Shown: positions 9,888-26,872 of the stretch, piece after piece | Layout: each line of letters opens with the position of its first letter | Position numbering within the stretch: the first letter of the stretch is position 1 | Source of the DNA: Candidatus Poribacteria bacterium | Lineage (GTDB): Bacteria; Poribacteria; WGA-4E; WGA-3G | DNA length: 64,000 bases | NCBI GenBank assembly: GCA_022824265.1 | Contig: JAJEAG010000010.1 | Coordinates: 62,001 to 126,000, forward strand | Reading direction: 5' to 3' | Notes under the pieces: generated by a model | Databases searched by the model: none | Told to the model about the DNA's origin: nothing | The model's input: only the letters and a program-made list of their open reading frames with translations | Program-made: the position numbers and the translations under genes

Positions 9888-10715
9888 ATGATGTCCATAT
9901 TAGAGGAACGACTTGAAGCCTACAAGACTGATGGTTTCACAATTTTTGAGAAAGTGTTTGATGAAACACAGATGCAGCTATGGAAAGATAAACATCAGGA
10001 ACTCTCTGCTGCGCACAATGGGCAAACATGGTTTGGTAATACCTTGGAATTAGCACCAGAACTGATGTGGTCAGCTGTTTCAAATTCCACTATCCTTGAA
10101 TTTATAGAAAAGGTGATGGGTCCTTTTGTGCAGTTAGACAACCTTACACTTGCAGCATTTCTATCTATTGAACAGGAAAAAGCAGAGGGTAGGGTTTCAG
10201 GCTGGCATCGCGATCGGTGGGCACATGTGCCATTTACTGATGCATACCACCGTCCTAATGCTGTCAATGCAATATCATATCTTCAAGACCTTACGGATGA
10301 ATTTGGTCCTCTCCGTGTGATTGTTGGTTCGCATCGATCACCGTTGACGATTGAAGACGTTAACCGCAGAATACCGCATCCTGATGAAACTATTATTCAC
10401 ATGAAGGCTGGTGATGTTGTGATTACACATAACGGTCTTGTTCATTCTGGTACACCGAATACATCTGGTCAGTTACGATACTTTTTTAGTATCTACTATA
10501 ACCTAACGTGGCTAAAACATACAGATCATCATACAGGACCACACACCCAAAAGTTGCTTGCAGACGCTAAAGCAGCAAACAATCACCAACTGATGAGACT
10601 TCTCGGTGTAGATGAGCAACTGCAACCGCGATGTAACTCAGGTTTTCTTCAATCTGATGAGGAACGGTGGGAACAGTGGGCAGAGGCTGACCGTGCTGCT
10701 ATAAAGGAGAATTAG
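9888..10715 (+). CDS. phytanoyl-CoA dioxygenase family protein
   Basis: A 275-residue Fe(II)/2-oxoglutarate oxygenase with an intact facial triad: H107-R-D109 and distal H186, with R197 as the likely 2-oxoglutarate anchor and the P-L-R-V-I-V-G-S-H-R strand between. It should hydroxylate a small organic substrate in the cytoplasm. AGGA lies just upstream; either ATG 9888 or ATG 9891 may be used. Only 3 bp separate it from a second oxygenase, and a sulfatase-fold hydrolase follows, so three enzymes form one operon. This is the pattern expected when an ester or phosphonate is first hydroxylated and then hydrolysed, but the substrate is not evident. Confidence 0.9.
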   Translation: MMSILEERLEAYKTDGFTIFEKVFDETQMQLWKDKHQELSAAHNGQTWFGNTLELAPELMWSAVSNSTILEFIEKVMGPFVQLDNLTLAAFLSIEQEKAEGRVSGWHRDRWAHVPFTDAYHRPNAVNAISYLQDLTDEFGPLRVIVGSHRSPLTIEDVNRRIPHPDETIIHMKAGDVVITHNGLVHSGTPNTSGQLRYFFSIYYNLTWLKHTDHHTGPHTQKLLADAKAANNHQLMRLLGVDEQLQPRCNSGFLQSDEERWEQWAEADRAAIKEN

Positions 10716-10718
10716 TCA

Positions 10719-11465
10719 ATGGCTGAAGGACCGGTAGTTCCTCCACATTTGAATGTAGAACTTGATCACGAATTACAAGCAGAGGTGAACTTTTTCTTGA
10801 AATGGGGATACCTGATTGTCAATGACGCGGCAACGCCCGAGCAAATTGAGTCGTTGCGTGAGGCACTTGATGAAAGCTATGAACGTCATGAGAAAAACCA
10901 ATTCATCGGTGAGTTACTTGAAGAGGATGATAGATTTGCATTTTTACTTGATAACCCGCCAGTGATGAAACGGATGGAAGCGATATTAGGCACTTGTGTC
11001 CAATTACACAGTGCAACTGCCCGAATTACTGAACCAGGTACTCCTGATCAAAACTGGCATAGAGATGGTCCTTGGCCTGTTGATCAATTCGGTACACCTT
11101 ATGGCAGTTTGCCTGCTCAAATCAACTGTGGATACTATCTTGACGAAATAACAGATGAAACTGGACCAACAGTAGTTCAACCCGGTAGCCACAGGGCACC
11201 GTTTCGTCCGCCACCCTCTCCGGTTCAACTCCCAGATGAAAAACGCGTGTTGGTTTCCCCTGGACAAGCAGTTATGTTTGATGGTTGGACGTGGCATCGT
11301 GGTGCTGCAAACACCTCATCAGAACGTCGTCGCGTTTGTCTTATGTGCTATCAGAATGCTTGGATGAAATCACGCGAACCTTTTGATGGACCACGCGTCA
11401 CACGTCTACGTGAAGAAGGAACACCTCAACAAAAGTTGTTGCTTGGTGCAATTCCAAAATGGTAA
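10719..11465 (+). CDS. phytanoyl-CoA dioxygenase family protein
   Basis: A 248-residue oxygenase of the same superfamily as its upstream neighbour but clearly diverged from it. The iron triad is H114-R-D116 and H193; R205 probably binds 2-oxoglutarate. The family strand T-V-V-Q-P-G-S-H-R is intact. An AAGGAG lies about eight bases before the ATG, inside the end of the preceding gene. It is followed after 40 bp by the Thr-type sulfatase-fold hydrolase. Two non-identical oxygenases in tandem suggest successive oxidations, or two related substrates. Confidence 0.9.
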   Translation: MAEGPVVPPHLNVELDHELQAEVNFFLKWGYLIVNDAATPEQIESLREALDESYERHEKNQFIGELLEEDDRFAFLLDNPPVMKRMEAILGTCVQLHSATARITEPGTPDQNWHRDGPWPVDQFGTPYGSLPAQINCGYYLDEITDETGPTVVQPGSHRAPFRPPPSPVQLPDEKRVLVSPGQAVMFDGWTWHRGAANTSSERRRVCLMCYQNAWMKSREPFDGPRVTRLREEGTPQQKLLLGAIPKW

Positions 11466-14693: not shown

Positions 14694-14746
14694 CCGATCG
14701 ACAATAGCAATCCTCGGCATAATATTTGAAAAACGGAAATAATGAC

Positions 14747-15550
14747 GTGGAAAAACTCGGCATTATCGCAGGGGCAGGCGAGTTACCAGTACTCGTTGCT
14801 AAAAGCGCAGTTGATCAAGGCATACACCCAATTATCATTCCAATTACAAAAGAGGATGAAGAACGTTTTTCAACAATATCGTGTGAAGTCTATCCGTATG
14901 GTGTTGGACAGATTCAAAAAATAACACAAAAACTGCTTGAGTTAAACGTACGCGACCTTATCATTATCGGGAAAATTGAGCCAAGTATCCTGCTTCGTCC
15001 ATTACAATTTGATGCGACAGCACTTAAGATTTTAGCACAAAATCGTAGCAGAAAACCATCCACACTTGTTTCTGCGGTGCTTGAACACTTTCAATCTGCT
15101 GGACTTTCTATCCTTAAACAGGACTATTTTCTAACGCATCTATTACCAGAACCTGGTGTCCTCACAAAACGACAACCGAATTCATCCCAGTGGAAAGATA
15201 TTGATATTGGCATACAGATTGCACGTAGGATAGCAGACTTAGATATTGGTCAGACTGTTGTAGTAAAGAACGAGATTATAATTGCTATTGAAGCTATTGA
15301 AGGAACAGATACCACGATTGAGCGAGGTGGAGAACTGGGTGGCAAAGGAATTGTTGTTGCAAAAGCAGCATCCGATAGTCACGATTTCCGTATAGACGTT
15401 CCAACCGTCGGTATGCAGACGCTTCAGAAAGTGCATGATGTAAAAGGGAGTGTTTTGGCTGTTGAGGCAAGACGGACATTTGTTATGTCGCCTGAAACAT
15501 TATACCCACAAGCAGACCGTTGGAAAATTGCAATTGTTGCTGTGGAATAA
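14747..15550 (+). CDS. lpxI: UDP-2,3-diacylglucosamine diphosphatase LpxI (DUF1009)
   Basis: A lipid A biosynthesis enzyme that hydrolyses UDP-2,3-diacylglucosamine to lipid X, the alternative to LpxH. The N terminus K-L-G-I-I-A-G-A-G-E-L-P and the C-terminal block with D-V-P-T-V-G and G-x-x-L-A-V-E-A are characteristic. I chose GTG 14747, which gives the typical start M-E-K-L-G and has GGAA a suitable distance upstream; a TTG at 14726 would add seven unusual residues. Length 267 is normal. Its presence shows that the cell makes lipid A and has an outer membrane. The rest of the lipid A pathway is not in this window. Confidence 0.92.
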   Translation: MEKLGIIAGAGELPVLVAKSAVDQGIHPIIIPITKEDEERFSTISCEVYPYGVGQIQKITQKLLELNVRDLIIIGKIEPSILLRPLQFDATALKILAQNRSRKPSTLVSAVLEHFQSAGLSILKQDYFLTHLLPEPGVLTKRQPNSSQWKDIDIGIQIARRIADLDIGQTVVVKNEIIIAIEAIEGTDTTIERGGELGGKGIVVAKAASDSHDFRIDVPTVGMQTLQKVHDVKGSVLAVEARRTFVMSPETLYPQADRWKIAIVAVE

Positions 15551-15704: not shown

Positions 15705-17807
15705 ATGACGTTCAAAAGATTCCTTGCTATACTTATTATTGGGATAACCTTGTCTGTTGGTTTTGTCTTTTTTTTGAAATTGCGGTCTCGTGTTGTTCTG
15801 GACGATATGTCCACTCCAAGTGTAACACTTCCTCCCCTGACTCCTCGCAGTATTGAAATACCTGACGAAATTCGTCAGAAGTTCACTGAAGTTCCTAAAA
15901 AACCTACTCTAATTACTTTGATTGAACATGGTAGTCCTATAGATGCTGTGTATTTTTCACCTACAGATCCATCGTTGATTGTAAGTAGAGGAAGAGATAA
16001 AAGCATTAAGTTATGGGATTTAAACTATCCAAGTGAACCATCTGCGGTTATCACAGGAGATTCTGTGTCTATCTCCCCGGATGGCAAGTTGCTTGCAGTT
16101 TGTAGTTTACGGAACGGTACAAGTTTGTGGAATGTAGAAACCAAACAGTATATTGTTTCTGACGGTATATCATCAAGAGAAGCGATTTTTTCTCCTGATG
16201 GAAAAAGTTTAGCGATAGGTACGATAGGTGGGGTACAGTTATGGAACATTGATAACCCGTCAAAACCGAAAAAGGGACTCAGGCTAAATACAATAGGAAT
16301 CGTTGAGAATTTGGCATATTCTACGGATGGTAGACTTCTTTCAGCTGCAAATAGAGTCAGTGGTGATGTAGATATCTGGGAACTAAATGGAAATAATGTA
16401 GTAAAAAGCACTAATTTCAATGTAAGTGACGATAAGCCGAAATGGGTTGAGGCACTTGCTTTTATGCCTGATGCTATGAATCCTGTGCTTGCGATTGCCA
16501 AGAACGATAAGAATATCAAAATGTATTCGCCCGCAGATTGGCAGGTTCAAACTGAGATAATTACTGGACATGTCAACGATTTGGCATTTTCATCGGATGC
16601 AAAATGGCTTGTGACTGCCGGATATAATGAAATAGACGTATGGTCTACCGACAACGGAGAACGTGTACTCGCAATAGAAGGTAATTCTCGTTGGGTGAAT
16701 TGTGTTGACATTTCTACTGATGGTGTTTATGTTGCAGGTGCAGGAAATGACGGTATAATACGGGTCTGGAACGTTTCAGAGAATATATCAACCCAACAGG
16801 TAACGTCATCAGATGTGGTTAAACTGATCTATTTCTTGCCGAGTGACCGACCACCTCAACCAGATATTCCAGAGAAATTAGAAGTATTAATGCAAGACGC
16901 ACAGAAGTTCTACGCTGACGAAATGGAACGTCATGGCTTCGGTGGAAAGACTTTTTCAGTTGAAAAAAATGTTGATGGTACTACAAAAGTTTACTTATTT
17001 GAGGGACGGACAACTGCGGATTACTACTTTATCAAAACCACAACAAAAGTGAGAAGAGAAATAGATCAATTTTTTGATTCATCTAAGAATATTAACTTAA
17101 TTGTTGTAGATATTAATAGGACATTAACCAGTAAATCGAGTGGAATCGTTAGTGCAAGTCCAAAACCTTATACGATTGACTACACGAATGACTCGATGGG
17201 ACTACAGGGTGGTGACCTAATATTGACTGTAAATCCAAACGGATATTCATCAGAGTTATTAGCAAGAGAACTGGGACACACATTTGGATTAGGCAATGAT
17301 TTTCGTGATGCCTCTTATCTTATGTCATACGGCAGAAATCAAAAACGATTATCTAAAAGTAGTGCTGAATGGTTAAATAAAAGTAGGTATTTTAATCCAA
17401 ATCAGACATCATATAATACCCATGCATCAGTTGAAAAACAGGCGACGTTGTCAAATACTTTAAAATTGCAGATAAATGATGCCGATGGCATTCATCAAGT
17501 GCGTTTATTCGCAAAACTAACCAATGAATTTCCTCCTCCTGGATACAAGTGGAACACTAACCCAGATACTAATAAATTAGGTTGGGAAAGAAGGCATAAA
17601 GGGAAAGACTTTGTACTACATGATTATGTAACAGTAGATTTAAAACCAAATGCTACGCTTGAGTTTAAGTTGCCAGAATATTCTAAAGATCTCTTCAGAA
17701 TTCAGATCATAGATAGATATGGTAATATAGTTTATAGAGAATTGAACCTTATTGAGGAAAAAGAGAGCTCCATAACAAAACTTGTTCGGGGTGTTGTTGG
17801 GGGATAG
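15705..17807 (+). CDS. membrane-anchored WD40 propeller with degenerate metzincin domain
   Basis: A 700-residue protein. Residues 4-25 form an N-terminal membrane anchor; about 60-370 is a WD40 propeller with repeated S-P-D-G and I-K-L-W-D type motifs, presumably in the periplasm. The C-terminal half (about 400-590) resembles a metzincin peptidase: R521-E-L-G-H525-T-F-G528-L-G-N531-D-F, followed by the Met-turn Y-L-M-S-Y-G. The zinc motif HExxHxxGxxH is broken, with Arg for the first His and Asn for the third, so a peptidase of this form should be inactive. A beta-sandwich-like tail with D-A-D-G-I-H-Q-V-R-L-F follows. The gene at 19075 has the same layout with different lesions, so they are ancient duplicates. 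Possible role: substrate-binding pseudoprotease or scaffold. Confidence 0.85.
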   Translation: MTFKRFLAILIIGITLSVGFVFFLKLRSRVVLDDMSTPSVTLPPLTPRSIEIPDEIRQKFTEVPKKPTLITLIEHGSPIDAVYFSPTDPSLIVSRGRDKSIKLWDLNYPSEPSAVITGDSVSISPDGKLLAVCSLRNGTSLWNVETKQYIVSDGISSREAIFSPDGKSLAIGTIGGVQLWNIDNPSKPKKGLRLNTIGIVENLAYSTDGRLLSAANRVSGDVDIWELNGNNVVKSTNFNVSDDKPKWVEALAFMPDAMNPVLAIAKNDKNIKMYSPADWQVQTEIITGHVNDLAFSSDAKWLVTAGYNEIDVWSTDNGERVLAIEGNSRWVNCVDISTDGVYVAGAGNDGIIRVWNVSENISTQQVTSSDVVKLIYFLPSDRPPQPDIPEKLEVLMQDAQKFYADEMERHGFGGKTFSVEKNVDGTTKVYLFEGRTTADYYFIKTTTKVRREIDQFFDSSKNINLIVVDINRTLTSKSSGIVSASPKPYTIDYTNDSMGLQGGDLILTVNPNGYSSELLARELGHTFGLGNDFRDASYLMSYGRNQKRLSKSSAEWLNKSRYFNPNQTSYNTHASVEKQATLSNTLKLQINDADGIHQVRLFAKLTNEFPPPGYKWNTNPDTNKLGWERRHKGKDFVLHDYVTVDLKPNATLEFKLPEYSKDLFRIQIIDRYGNIVYRELNLIEEKESSITKLVRGVVGG

Positions 17808-17906
17808 ATTTTTGTTCTACTATAAATTGTATTGAATAATTATACAACCATCAGTATAGAATTTGTATTTCCTATCTCAAATAGATTTCTATCTGGAGTC
17901 AACTGA

Positions 17907-19085
17907 ATGGTCATGTTAAAAAGATTATTCCTAATTTTTGCATTAATTACTGCAATGGGACTATTAGGGGTTTCCACATGGCATCAGTGGAATGAGAATC
18001 AGAAAACAGTCATAGAACGGATAAGACCCATACGTCCAATGGCTGAGTTTAATCACGGATCCATGATTGATGACATTGCATTTTCTCCATCTGACGTTGA
18101 TGTCATTGCAAGTGTAGGTGATGACAATAACATTAAGATATGGAACAAAAACAATCCTGATACCCCTATTAAAATCATACAAGACAACGAAGAGGATCTC
18201 ATCTCATTAGAATATCTAAACGATGGGAAATTGTTGTTATGTAAAGGTCTGCATAGAAAGATGATATTGTGTGATACTATTTCTTGGGAAAGAATAACTT
18301 TACCTCAGGAAAAGCTGTTGTGGGATGCTGCAATTTCTCCGTCCGGAGATTACCTTGCGAATGTCTATTCACGACGATTAGAGTTATGGGATATTCGGAA
18401 TCCAGATGAGATCGTTTTAACAAAAACGATTAAAGAAATTCATCATATTAAGTATCATAATTCCTTTAAATATACAGACTTTTCTCCAAACGGCAAATGG
18501 CTTGCTATTGGATATGAGAACGGAGATATTAGGATTTGGGATTTAGAACAGGAGAAATTTATCAAAACATTATCTGTTCCACCTGATAGTCATTTACACT
18601 TGGAAGATATTAAGTATTCACCTAATGGAAATTGGATTGTTGCTTTAGCCACTAACAGTTTGACATTATGGGATGTAGAGAAAAAGAAACGCACAATATT
18701 GTTGGAGAACACTTATATAGGATTTTTCCGAAATGTGAAGTTATCTTCTGACGGTAGATATATCGGTATTAGAACTCATGACAAAAGTTATGGATATATT
18801 ATATGGAGTTTACCAGAAGTACAGATATACCATTCGGTGGCTGAGGGAAACATTTCTGGTTTAGCATTTTCTCCTGATGGAAAAACTGTTGCTGTTTCAG
18901 ATCCTGGTAAAGTCATTCTGATGTCTTTAGATACCCTTACTCCACACACCGTTCTGAAAGGCGAGGGATTCTTAGGTGGCGCATCGGATATGACATTTTC
19001 TCCTGATGGTAGCATGCTTGCTGGTAGTTCTGGTTTTGGTGGTGTTGTTCGTGTATGGGATATGAGTGAAATAAATGAAAAATAA
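17907..19085 (+). CDS. membrane-anchored WD40 propeller protein
   Basis: A 392-residue paralogue of the flanking WD40 proteins that lacks the peptidase-like half. It has an N-terminal anchor (about residues 5-24), then WD40-type repeats with F-S-P-D-G and R-V-W-D signatures up to the end. GGAG lies ten bases before the ATG at 17907; a second in-frame ATG is at 17913. Its 3' end overlaps the next gene by 11 bp, so translation of the two is probably coupled. A protein-protein interaction role outside the cytoplasm is likely; partners are unknown, with the neighbouring paralogues the obvious candidates. Confidence 0.85.
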   Translation: MVMLKRLFLIFALITAMGLLGVSTWHQWNENQKTVIERIRPIRPMAEFNHGSMIDDIAFSPSDVDVIASVGDDNNIKIWNKNNPDTPIKIIQDNEEDLISLEYLNDGKLLLCKGLHRKMILCDTISWERITLPQEKLLWDAAISPSGDYLANVYSRRLELWDIRNPDEIVLTKTIKEIHHIKYHNSFKYTDFSPNGKWLAIGYENGDIRIWDLEQEKFIKTLSVPPDSHLHLEDIKYSPNGNWIVALATNSLTLWDVEKKKRTILLENTYIGFFRNVKLSSDGRYIGIRTHDKSYGYIIWSLPEVQIYHSVAEGNISGLAFSPDGKTVAVSDPGKVILMSLDTLTPHTVLKGEGFLGGASDMTFSPDGSMLAGSSGFGGVVRVWDMSEINEK

Positions 19086-21105
19086 AAGAATATTACTCTT
19101 AATATTGTGTTTTGTAATAGCAGTTGTTGTCGTTGTAATTTACTTCAACACACGTCCGCACCATGTATTGCTTCCGCAGGAATTTGCGCAGATGCCCTTA
19201 AAACCTAAACTTATTGATGAATTTCATCAGAATACTAAGATTTATTCTGTGGCATTTTCACCGGTAGATCCATCTCTCATTGCATTTGTTGATCAAAATG
19301 GGACGATTAAATTGTGGAACAGAAATATCACAAATAAACCGGCTTTAGCTCTAAATCATCCTGACAAGTATCCGTCAATAGGCTTCTCACCTACAGGAAA
19401 CCTACTTGTCTGTGCTGCTTGGAATCTCATATTGTGGGATGTTGCTTCAGGTGAGAAAGTCAATACCCTTAAGACCTCTTACGGAGGATTCGCCTTTACA
19501 CCAGATGGGCGCTTCTTAGCAACAAATAGTAATGTAGTGAAACTCTGGGATATAAGGAATCCAAAACATATAATTGAAGTAGCTACACTTCCATTCAATG
19601 AGGAACATAAAGCAAAAGGTTGGACATGTGCAGTAGACATTTCATCAGACGGAAAATGGATCGCTGCAGGATATTCCCACGGAACTATCAATGTATGGGA
19701 TTTAAATACCAAACAATTAGTCCGAACCTTAGAAACAACTTATTATGAGATGAATTTTCTCAAGTTTTCTCCAAATAACAAATTTCTCACAGTTGGAGGA
19801 CCCGTGCTTTTCAAAGATAAAAATGATAAGACATGGGTAAGTAATGGGGCAAAAGGTTATTCCATGTGGGAATTACCGAATTGGAAACCCCATGGTGGCG
19901 TGCAGCGTGGTAATATTGAAAATTTGGTGTTCTCTCCAGATGGAAAGATGTGTGTAGGCTCGAATGATTGGTTATTTTATGGAAGAGGCGTAGAAATCTG
20001 GTCAACTGCGGATGGTGCACCTATTACATCATTACAAACGGCAGCAAAAGATATTTCTATTTCAAATGATGGGAAGTTACTGGCAACTGGTGGCAGAGAT
20101 GGGATAGTCAGGATTTGGAAACTCAACCCCAAGCAATTAGATTTAACCACAACCCCTGCTGATGTTGTGCGGATTATTTATTGCTTACCAAAAGATGAAG
20201 AACCACCATCTGATATTACAACAAGACTTGATGAATCTACAAAGAAAGTTCAAGATTTCTACGAGAATGAAATGGAAAAACATGGTTTAGGGAGAAAAAC
20301 GTTTCGTTTTGAAACTGACGAAAATGATAAATTAAAGGTATATCTTCTCAAAGAAAATGATAGAATTGATTTTGACCTATCAAACGAAATCTGGTTAGTT
20401 ATTCTTGATGAAAACACAACTTTCCCTCAACCGAATTATAAATTACCTCATTTTGGACATAACAAGACATTTTGGTATACCAAAATTAGTGGTAATAACC
20501 TTCAAGACCATGTCATTGCTGAAACATTGATAGGAACAAATCTTGGATCACTTCATTATGTGTATACTAAAAAGAAGAAAATTGATTGGCGGGATATTGC
20601 ACATGAGCTTAAATTTGCGTTTGCAGAACCTGATTGGAAATATCGATATTTTATGAGTGAAATGAACAAGTCTAAAGGTTTTTTTAGCCGTTTTAACAGG
20701 ATAATGCCATGGGGAAAAGATTGGATAAATTTATCAAAGTGTGAGGCAGAATGGTTGGATAAGAGCCGTTACTTTAATCCTAACCAACCCTTCTTTGATA
20801 AACGACCTGATATTCAAATGAGCGTGTCTCCATCGGAAGCTATGAATACACGACGTTTCCAATTTGACGTTGCAGATGAGGATGGAATTCACCAAGTACA
20901 GTTGTTTGTACCGATAGATATAAAAAGTCAAAGGGTGAGAAAGAAGTTTCACGATTGCAAAGCAGTAAACGGTAAAGCGAAGGCAACCGTTGTATTTGAA
21001 ATAACAGATCCTGAAATATATTCTGTTATACTACGGATGATTGATATGTATGGAAACATCGCATCACGAGAATTTATAATTAAAGACAAAACATCAGACA
21101 GATAA
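19075..21105 (+). CDS. membrane-anchored WD40 propeller with degenerate metzincin domain (second copy)
   Basis: A 676-residue paralogue of the protein at 15705, with the same order: membrane anchor (about 4-25), WD40 propeller (about 50-365), peptidase-like domain and a tail with D-E-D-G-I-H-Q-V-Q-L-F. Here the zinc motif reads H510-E511-L-K-F514-A-F-A517-E-P-D520: the first His, the Glu and an Asp in the third-ligand position survive, but the second His is Phe and the Gly is Ala. The Met-turn region reads Y-F-M-S-E-M. The damage therefore differs from that in the first paralogue. Overlaps the preceding gene by 11 bp. Expected to be a catalytically dead peptidase fold exposed in the periplasm. 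Confidence 0.85.
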   Translation: MKNKRILLLILCFVIAVVVVVIYFNTRPHHVLLPQEFAQMPLKPKLIDEFHQNTKIYSVAFSPVDPSLIAFVDQNGTIKLWNRNITNKPALALNHPDKYPSIGFSPTGNLLVCAAWNLILWDVASGEKVNTLKTSYGGFAFTPDGRFLATNSNVVKLWDIRNPKHIIEVATLPFNEEHKAKGWTCAVDISSDGKWIAAGYSHGTINVWDLNTKQLVRTLETTYYEMNFLKFSPNNKFLTVGGPVLFKDKNDKTWVSNGAKGYSMWELPNWKPHGGVQRGNIENLVFSPDGKMCVGSNDWLFYGRGVEIWSTADGAPITSLQTAAKDISISNDGKLLATGGRDGIVRIWKLNPKQLDLTTTPADVVRIIYCLPKDEEPPSDITTRLDESTKKVQDFYENEMEKHGLGRKTFRFETDENDKLKVYLLKENDRIDFDLSNEIWLVILDENTTFPQPNYKLPHFGHNKTFWYTKISGNNLQDHVIAETLIGTNLGSLHYVYTKKKKIDWRDIAHELKFAFAEPDWKYRYFMSEMNKSKGFFSRFNRIMPWGKDWINLSKCEAEWLDKSRYFNPNQPFFDKRPDIQMSVSPSEAMNTRRFQFDVADEDGIHQVQLFVPIDIKSQRVRKKFHDCKAVNGKAKATVVFEITDPEIYSVILRMIDMYGNIASREFIIKDKTSDR

Positions 21106-21137: not shown

Positions 21138-21650
21138 ATGTCAAAAAAAACTGCAATCTTTCCTGCAAGTTTCGACCCAATTACACTCGGACATGTAGAC
21201 TTGATTGATCGAGTTTGCAAACTTGACGTATTTGATGAACTTGTGGTTGTTATCGCGGTGAACCCAGCTAAACAGGAACGATTCACGATTGAAGAACGTA
21301 TCCAAATGCTTGAAGAGGTAATCAAACCCTATCCGAAAGCAACGATTGATGGGTATGCTGGGTTGGTGGTACAATATGCACAGACGTGTGGAGCAAGTGC
21401 AATCATACGCGGTCTACGTGAAATATCAGATTTTGAATGGGAATTCAAAATGGCACGCATGAATCAGCAGATTGCCCCTGAAATTGATACGTTATTTATG
21501 GTAGCGAGTACAAACTACGCACATATCAGCTCAACACTTGTGATGGAGGTAGTGGAGATGGGACAGGGGAGAATTAGTGAAGGTAAGTTATTGGAAATGG
21601 TGCCTCCGGTTGTAGTAGAATTTATCAAACGCAAATTTCATTTAGAGTAA
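21138..21650 (+). CDS. coaD: phosphopantetheine adenylyltransferase
   Basis: Catalyses the fourth step of coenzyme A synthesis, joining AMP to 4'-phosphopantetheine. The nucleotidyltransferase signature is S11-F-D-P-I-T16-L-G-H19. Downstream come R-G-L-R-E-I-S-D-F-E-W-E and the I-S-S-T-L-V-M-E-V segment, all family hallmarks. The residue before S11 is Ala where Gly is usual, a mild variation. Length 170 is close to the usual 160. A clear AAAGGAG ribosome site precedes the ATG. It follows the WD40 genes and is convergent with the TonB receptor. Confidence 0.95.
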   Translation: MSKKTAIFPASFDPITLGHVDLIDRVCKLDVFDELVVVIAVNPAKQERFTIEERIQMLEEVIKPYPKATIDGYAGLVVQYAQTCGASAIIRGLREISDFEWEFKMARMNQQIAPEIDTLFMVASTNYAHISSTLVMEVVEMGQGRISEGKLLEMVPPVVVEFIKRKFHLE

Positions 21651-25328: not shown

Positions 25329-26099
25329 TTGCTTGATGTCCAAAATCTGTGTAAATCAATTGGCAAGAAGCCATTTTTTATAGAACTTTCCTTTCAAGTA
25401 GCAGCTGGTGAGTCCCTTATCATTCTTGGAAAAAACGGTGTAGGAAAAACTCTCCTGCTCAATATTTTGGCAACCTTAGTTGAACCGACATCAGGCACTG
25501 TCTCTATTTCAGGCAAAGATGCGTTTTCAAATTTGAGACAAGTGCGTCCACACATCGGATATATACCGGTTGCTTTTGAAGGATATCCTGAGTCATCTGT
25601 TATTGATTATCTCAATTTTTTCGCTGCTGCATACAAATTGGATAAACAGGATCGTGCAGCATCAATTGATTCTGTTCTTGAATTGATGGACATACAACAC
25701 CTACGTGATATAAGAATGGGTGCTTTGTCTACAGGAGAACGACAACGAATACTATTTGCTAAGACATTCCTTCATGATCCACAGTTGTGGTTGCTTGATG
25801 AACCGTTAGCACCACTTGACCCACGTGGTCAAATTGAGATGGTAGAATTGCTCAATGAACTCAAGTCAATGGGGAAAACTATTGTAATCGCAACGAATCG
25901 TCTTGAAGATGTACAACAACTCTGTGATAATAGTTCTACAACTATACAAAATACATATCTTCTCGGTATACTCAATGAAGGGACATTCGTTGTTTTCAAT
26001 TCATACAGTAAACTGCAGCTCGAACATACAGAAGATTATTCAGAAGATATTCATCCGCATTGGCTGATAGAACTTTATTTGGAGGTTACAAGATCGTAA
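25329..26099 (+). CDS. ABC transporter ATP-binding protein (CcmA-like)
   Basis: A 256-residue ATPase subunit. Walker A is G34-K-N-G-V-G-K-T41, the signature is L-S-T-G-E-R-Q-R (133-140), and Walker B is L-W-L-L-D-E-P (153-159). The Q-loop region lacks a Gln and reads Y-I-P-V-A-F-E-G-Y-P, as in CcmA/multidrug-type ATPases. The start is TTG 25329, supported by GGAG eight bases upstream and the normal N terminus L-D-V-Q-N-L. No permease is adjacent. The stop overlaps the ATG of the next gene (TAATG), so it is translationally coupled to a PhyH oxygenase, an unusual pairing. Confidence 0.9.
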   Translation: MLDVQNLCKSIGKKPFFIELSFQVAAGESLIILGKNGVGKTLLLNILATLVEPTSGTVSISGKDAFSNLRQVRPHIGYIPVAFEGYPESSVIDYLNFFAAAYKLDKQDRAASIDSVLELMDIQHLRDIRMGALSTGERQRILFAKTFLHDPQLWLLDEPLAPLDPRGQIEMVELLNELKSMGKTIVIATNRLEDVQQLCDNSSTTIQNTYLLGILNEGTFVVFNSYSKLQLEHTEDYSEDIHPHWLIELYLEVTRS

Positions 26100-26872
26100 T
26101 GGCAGACATCGGTAAATTCTTTCATGAAAATGGATACTATTTTGGTAAAGGCATCTATTCATCTGATGAGGTGAAGTTGATGGAACACGACTTTGACCGT
26201 GTGGTAGACCAGTTGCTCAAAAGTGATGAGAACGTCAACGCTCGTTGGGGAGGTAGGTTAATGGATGCACTTGATGGCGGAGAATCTGTTATCATTCATA
26301 CGCATAATATACAGAGTTTTTCAGGTGTGTGGTTGAAGGCATTTCAGCAGGACAAATTTCTTGATGTAGCAGAAGCTATCCTTGGACCGGATATTATGCT
26401 CCATCATTCTAAACTTTTCTGCAAACCACCTGAGAAAGGTTCACCTTTTCCGATGCATCAGGATTGGCAGTATTTTCCTTCTGTCAAAGATTCGATGATA
26501 GCCGCTATTATCTATGTATCTGATGCGACAGATGAGATGGGATGTGTTCGTGTTTATCCTGGTTCGCACAAGGAACTTGGAAGAATAGGCGGTATGATGG
26601 GACGTGGTGATAACGAAGAGATAACGGAAAAATACCCGATTGAGAAGGCTACTGTATTAGAAGCGGAACCGGGGGATGTTCTTTTCTTTAGTTACTTCAC
26701 ATTGCATGGTTCAATGCCAAACCGTTCAAATAAGACGAGAAAGAGTGTTCTTGTACAAATGCATGCTGGTGATGACCAAATTGAGTCTGGAAATCGGCAT
26801 ACCAATGTTCAATTGGTTCTTCGTGGATTGAATCATTTTGCTACACGATCATCTGTTGGAAGTATTCGGTAA
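26099..26872 (+). CDS. phytanoyl-CoA dioxygenase family protein
   Basis: A 257-residue Fe(II)/2-oxoglutarate oxygenase. The iron triad is H120-Q-D122 and H203, with R214 as the likely 2-oxoglutarate anchor. P-M-H-Q-D-W and C-V-R-V-Y-P-G-S-H-K match the classical PhyH pattern closely, so of the four PhyH proteins in the window this is nearest to characterised members. I start it at ATG 26099, which overlaps the ATPase stop, with GGAGG at 26081-26085; the longer frame from 26060 lies inside the ATPase gene. The substrate is unknown. Confidence 0.9.
   Translation: MADIGKFFHENGYYFGKGIYSSDEVKLMEHDFDRVVDQLLKSDENVNARWGGRLMDALDGGESVIIHTHNIQSFSGVWLKAFQQDKFLDVAEAILGPDIMLHHSKLFCKPPEKGSPFPMHQDWQYFPSVKDSMIAAIIYVSDATDEMGCVRVYPGSHKELGRIGGMMGRGDNEEITEKYPIEKATVLEAEPGDVLFFSYFTLHGSMPNRSNKTRKSVLVQMHAGDDQIESGNRHTNVQLVLRGLNHFATRSSVGSIR

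Follow-up and report, generated by a model that had tools for sequence, protein, structure and literature searches.

Two neighboring proteins in a Candidatus Poribacteria genome are membrane-anchored WD40 proteins in which a peptidase domain of the OgpA type has been retained after its zinc site was lost. The analysis found that their sequences are homologous to OgpA, that the zinc site was lost in two separate lineages, and that purifying selection has kept the damaged genes. We consider it fairly likely that both are catalytically dead, belong to a family of anchored WD40-OgpA-type proteins in Poribacteria, and are reused as binding or scaffold modules. The two are referred to here as protein A (P0001) and protein B (P0002), and their relatives as A type and B type. 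The window is the whole stretch of 64,000 nucleotides that was analyzed.

Organization of the locus

Poribacteria are a phylum of sponge symbionts with many WD40 proteins (PMC3909097). The window comes from a 4.45-Mb genome in 100 contigs, and the nearest named relatives of protein A, with 94% and 78% identity, are in Candidatus Poribacteria MAGs. The genes for protein A (positions 15705 to 17807, 700 amino acids), a paralogue, P0003 (17907 to 19085, 392 amino acids), and protein B (19075 to 21105, 676 amino acids) all lie in the same direction on the forward strand, and the paralogue gene overlaps the protein B gene by 11 bases. The three are bounded upstream by a forward-strand gene (14726 to 15550) that we take to be LpxI-like, which also flanks the locus in several relatives, and downstream by a forward-strand gene (21138 to 21650), presumably coaD for phosphopantetheine adenylyltransferase, which served as the locus marker for synteny.

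WD40 repeats (PF00400) were detected in all three proteins, with 82.8, 87.3, and 91.4 bits against a cut-off of 27. Proteins A and B begin with a hydrophobic segment that has neither a lipobox nor an obvious cleavage site, in agreement with the proposal of a first-pass annotation that they are anchored with their bulk outside the cytoplasm. In protein A this apparently uncleaved anchor is followed by the propeller (about 15903 to 16796), an OgpA-like metzincin domain (about 16797 to 17519), and a beta-sandwich tail (about 17520 to 17804), all on the forward strand. Protein B likewise has an anchor and a propeller, then a remodelled OgpA-like domain (about 20140 to 20844, forward strand), and ends in a similar beta-sandwich tail. 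Thus, open reading frames, WD40 matches, and motif letters agree with the architecture that the annotation had described as common to the two proteins, and the paralogue between them has the anchor and propeller without the metzincin domain, as it had also noted. The loci of relatives hold one to four propeller-only copies of this kind. When protein A was compared with the whole genome by tblastn, 190 matches were obtained, mostly to WD40 proteins that lack a metzincin domain. Elsewhere in the window, sequence reading identified three phytanoyl-CoA dioxygenase-like genes (9888 to 10715, 10719 to 11465, and 26060 to 26872), which fits the reported abundance of PhyH in Poribacteria.

Relationship to O-glycopeptidases

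The C-terminal halves are, by sequence, homologous to the O-glycopeptidase group of OgpA and AMUC_1438, a more specific parent than the metzincin ancestry that had been suggested for them. A profile of 13 intact relatives matched OgpA with an E value of 8e-17 over residues 19 to 253 of the solved chain, including HELGH, and matched AMUC_1438 with an E value of 3e-16; a profile of five relatives matched OgpA at 1e-11. Protein A alone matched OgpA with an E value of 1e-10 and protein B alone at 6e-5, with the N-terminal part covered. The intact orthologue at the same locus in the sister genus matched the Pfam family Reprolysin_4 with 29.5 bits against a cut-off of 22. For the C-terminal half the Pfam match to PF12044 was below the cut-off, and the domain could not be named from Pfam alone; the PF12044 match of AMUC_1438 is likewise partial (PMC9513282). 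The NCBIfam search gave no useful family for the proteins, and no relatives were found in the viral contigs searched.

Structure prediction, which had been proposed as a check on the fold, gave a mixed result. Foldseek ranked OgpA first, with OgpA and AMUC_1438 as the top matches for both C-terminal halves, but the AlphaFold models were weak, with pLDDT values of 58.7 and 51.7 and TM-scores of 0.23 to 0.30. The input alignments of six sequences probably explain the weak models. Because the TM-scores were low, we infer the metzincin fold of proteins A and B from their homology.

Loss of the zinc site

Enzymes of the OgpA and AMUC_1438 group, which cut mucin-like proteins, are characterized by an HExxHxxGxxH zinc site with a catalytic Glu and by cleavage N-terminal to O-glycosylated Ser or Thr. 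This motif is missing from protein A (RELGHTFGLGND, 17265 to 17300, forward strand), in which the first ligand His has become Arg and the third Asn while the Glu and the second His are retained, and from protein B (HELKFAFAEPD, 20602 to 20634, forward strand), in which the second ligand is Phe, the Gly has become Ala, and an inserted loop follows. The earlier observation that each protein lacks a different zinc ligand was correct in that different ligands are gone, but protein A is without two of them (the first and third) and protein B without the second.

The surroundings of the site have fared differently in the two types. All six A-type relatives have Arg or Lys at ligand 1, Asn or Arg at ligand 3, and MSYG or MSYS at the Met-turn, which in protein A is the retained YLMSYG (17316 to 17333, forward strand). 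The protein A clade also still has Tyr-Tyr, Gly at -19, Gly-Leu, Asp at +11, and Arg at +13; among the positions conserved in intact enzymes, it has lost the Trp at -5 as well as the first and third ligands. The B clade has a loop insertion ahead of the third-ligand position, has lost the Tyr-Tyr segment, and has gained Lys or Arg at +3 in 27 of 27 proteins, and most of its members also lack HE and other motif letters. Where intact enzymes have MSYG or MSYA, protein B has MPWG (20704 to 20715, forward strand), with Met at the aligned position. This is a signature of the B clade: M-P-W was found in at least 19 of 27 proteins and K-P-W in 3 more.

Protein B is also recombinant. Residues about 31 to 540 have 80 to 94% DNA identity to the copy in one related genome (G002), and from about residue 571 the identity is 78 to 96% to the copy in another (G009) and only 64 to 71% to G002. 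The switch is near residue 560 (breakpoint near 20750). Exchange between paralogues may shuffle tails in this way.

Two independent losses

Matches were confined, among 118 relatives, to the class of the window organism. A tree computed from 71 proteins, with the motif columns left out, required two changes between the intact and damaged states. The 46 damaged copies fell into a clade of 19 (A type together with the type of the own-genome copy L002) and a clade of 27 (B type), each with 100/100 support, and a single clade of all 46 was rejected (AU test, p 4.4e-6). The A and B losses were therefore independent, and a single loss event is ruled out.

The locus beside coaD is syntenic in the genus of the window (g1) and a sister genus (g2). 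Its A-type gene is intact in g2, with the site HELGHAFGL[KQH]HD (L076 to L080), and damaged in all six copies found in g1, the one genus in which the A loss was seen at the locus. The B type is damaged in both genera alike, and its loss is thus the older of the two. Next to coaD in g2 there is also a third, intact anchored WD40 type, which was not found beside coaD in g1. With the locus recurring in two genera and all 46 damaged copies grouped into two clades with strong support, the occurrence of the damaged pair is far beyond chance.

Intact relatives had been predicted elsewhere in the genome, and five were recovered by the search for relatives (L003, L006, L009, L017, and L039). One of these, L003, is fused to WD40 repeats, has the intact site HELGHAFGLEHD, and is on a different contig from the locus, and L039 has an NPCBM domain. 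L003 and a second intact WD40-OgpA-like protein (L094, 3098 to 5602) have a type A sorting tail of the T9SS (TIGR04183, above cut-off). Such tails have been described in Poribacteria that lack the structural Por secretion genes (Kamke 2014; PMC3909097). Given this tail, L003 is probably secreted across the inner membrane. Two other anchored WD40 copies in the window genome are also damaged: L002 (KFAHAFGLNRD) and L005, in which the site is gone. Copies of the L002 type are nested within the A-type group and also occur at other loci in g2 genomes, which suggests duplication, and perhaps transfer, after the A loss.

Selection on the damaged domains

The ratio dN/dS was calculated with Nei-Gojobori estimates and a codon bootstrap. 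For the metzincin domain of the A type it was 0.13 (0.04 to 0.23), compared with 0.09 to 0.24 for intact enzymes and 0.29 to 0.50 for the L002 type. Thus, the A-type domain is held as strictly as an enzyme, and neutral decay of both domains is ruled out for A. The B-type domain gave 0.35 to 0.63, the upper bounds being close to 1 or lower, and 0.46 for protein B, whose mosaic structure complicates divergence-based estimates. The propellers of B-type proteins gave 0.24 to 0.36, and because the domain exceeds its own propeller, part of it may be under relaxed constraint. These values between relatives are in line with the expectation that selection keeps the damaged forms. With zinc ligands lost in both proteins, frames open, and purifying selection acting, the suggestion that they are retained pseudoproteases holds. 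Loss of catalytic residues in a gene that selection keeps is what defines a pseudoenzyme, and the case is strong for A and moderate for B.

Sugar pocket and basic residues

The GalNAc pocket of OgpA has been described (PMC7518263). In alignment, the Trp at -5 corresponds to OgpA W199, a residue of this pocket. It is present in 23 of 25 intact copies and in none of the 19 A-side copies, including the six of the protein A clade. At the aligned position the B type has Trp in 13 of 27 copies, among them protein B; many of its relatives have Arg. Lys or Arg at six site positions is absent from intact copies and averages 1.2, 2.5, and 2.3 in the three dead groups, counts that are not independent since the sequences are related. 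Where conserved residues have changed, replacement by Lys or Arg is more frequent at the site than elsewhere, although for the same reason the p-values overstate this. In the A type the Trp was lost along with the zinc ligands and basic residues occupy the vacated site, so the ligand is probably not the ancestral neutral O-glycan held in its original manner. It is conceivable, if rather doubtful, that in two O-glycopeptidase lineages the vacated zinc and sugar site independently became a basic pocket, and that these proteins now serve in the envelope as receptors of anionic ligands, for example sulfated glycans of the host.

Possible functions

If the proteins are binding or scaffold modules, each would be anchored in the inner membrane and face the periplasm, as anchor and predicted compartment suggest, and would be unable to bind the catalytic zinc. 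The propeller and the remodelled domain would hold putative protein or glycoprotein partners. The A-type domain may serve as a tightly conserved platform, and in the B type the former active-site region may form a rapidly evolving surface while the frame beneath it stays conserved. This role with a changed ligand is preferred over a simple glycan trap because the A type has lost the pocket Trp. A trap would bind the ancestral O-glycan without cutting it, as engineered OgpA H205A/E206A does when it enriches O-glycoproteins (PMC7518263). Ligands equivalent to that lost in the mutant are gone in the dead lineages, the A type retains the invariant Tyr-Tyr and the Met-turn Tyr, and there is Trp at the pocket position in 13 of 27 B types. 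However, the Trp matching W199 is absent from all 19 A-side copies, the Tyr-Tyr segment is gone in B types, and the ancestral pocket seems to have been taken apart and not maintained. A natural glycoprotein trap is therefore improbable, and an intact pocket is weakened as the main reading.

The dead copies could instead be regulatory partners that stabilize, inhibit, or deliver intact paralogues that are active O-glycopeptidases, or that shield their substrates. Regulation of active enzymes by related pseudometallopeptidases is known from other families (PMC11266112), and in g2 intact types neighbor the dead B type in one gene run (L076, L079, L081, and L105). Two g1 genomes have an intact OgpA-like gene without a WD40 match (HELGHGFGLTHN) immediately upstream of the B-type gene (L181, 10580 to 12796; L175, 5735 to 7945). 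However, the locus in the window genome has no intact copy left, and the intact WD40-fused L003, encoded on a separate contig, probably ends up beyond the inner membrane. A regulatory role is thus not likely, though it deserves consideration. It is highly improbable that the peptidase domain is decaying and functionless and persists only through its fusion to a useful propeller. In favor of decay, evolution in the B type is faster in this domain than in the attached propeller, the B-type gene is reduced to 97 amino acids in one genome (G010; L074, 6349 to 6639) and broken into two frames in another (G058; L078, 10733 to 12804), and the propeller-only paralogues indicate that the domain is dispensable. 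Decay is largely refuted for A by the low dN/dS of its domain and by frames that are open over large divergence, and in B it is opposed by new clade-specific conservation.

The annotation had also raised the possibility that the two proteins act together. Of 18 g1 genomes, 6 have the A type and 14 the B type, with B in 4 of the 6 genomes that have A and in 10 of the 12 that do not (Fisher p 0.57), absences being uncertain because some of these genomes are incomplete. There was no excess of co-occurrence over expectation, and one A-type genome has B only as the 97-amino-acid remnant. Joint action of the two is thus not supported, and an obligate pairing is unlikely and was rejected.

Comparison with known systems

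Intact, partly damaged, and fully remodelled forms can all be observed among the relatives of one genome: an intact g2 orthologue at the locus, forms with two ligands lost, and forms that are remodelled throughout. Such a series allows the birth of a pseudoenzyme to be tested in a bacterial system. A further consequence is that the WD40 proteins of sponge symbionts, abundant but unexplained, become linked to recognizing or processing glycosylated proteins. The literature search turned up no naturally dead member of the O-glycopeptidase group.

The closest known systems are OgpA (AMUC_1119) and AMUC_1438 of Akkermansia, in which a metzincin catalytic domain is followed by a beta-sandwich, as is predicted for the window proteins. 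Both can be aligned to intact poribacterial relatives over the catalytic domain, including HExxH, and AMUC_1438 shares its NPCBM domain with L039. In contrast, the window proteins have no zinc site, appear to be membrane anchored, and have an N-terminal WD40 propeller. OgpA H205A/E206A (GlycOCATCH; PMC7518263) offers a likeness in that the first ligand is lost and catalysis is gone while the fold persists. However, this mutant keeps the sugar pocket and binding, whereas the A-type lineage has lost the pocket Trp too. The NCBIfam family NF052323 (T9SS-dependent M6-like inactivated metalloprotease) is a curated bacterial family of inactivated metalloproteases, but it belongs to another peptidase family and was matched weakly, from the T9SS tail of L003 only. 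ADAM11, ADAM22, and ADAM23 differ in being eukaryotic, in belonging to another metzincin family, and in having no propeller, but like the proteins described here they are membrane-bound proteins with dead metzincin domains, which have been retained as receptors or scaffolds (PMC11266112).
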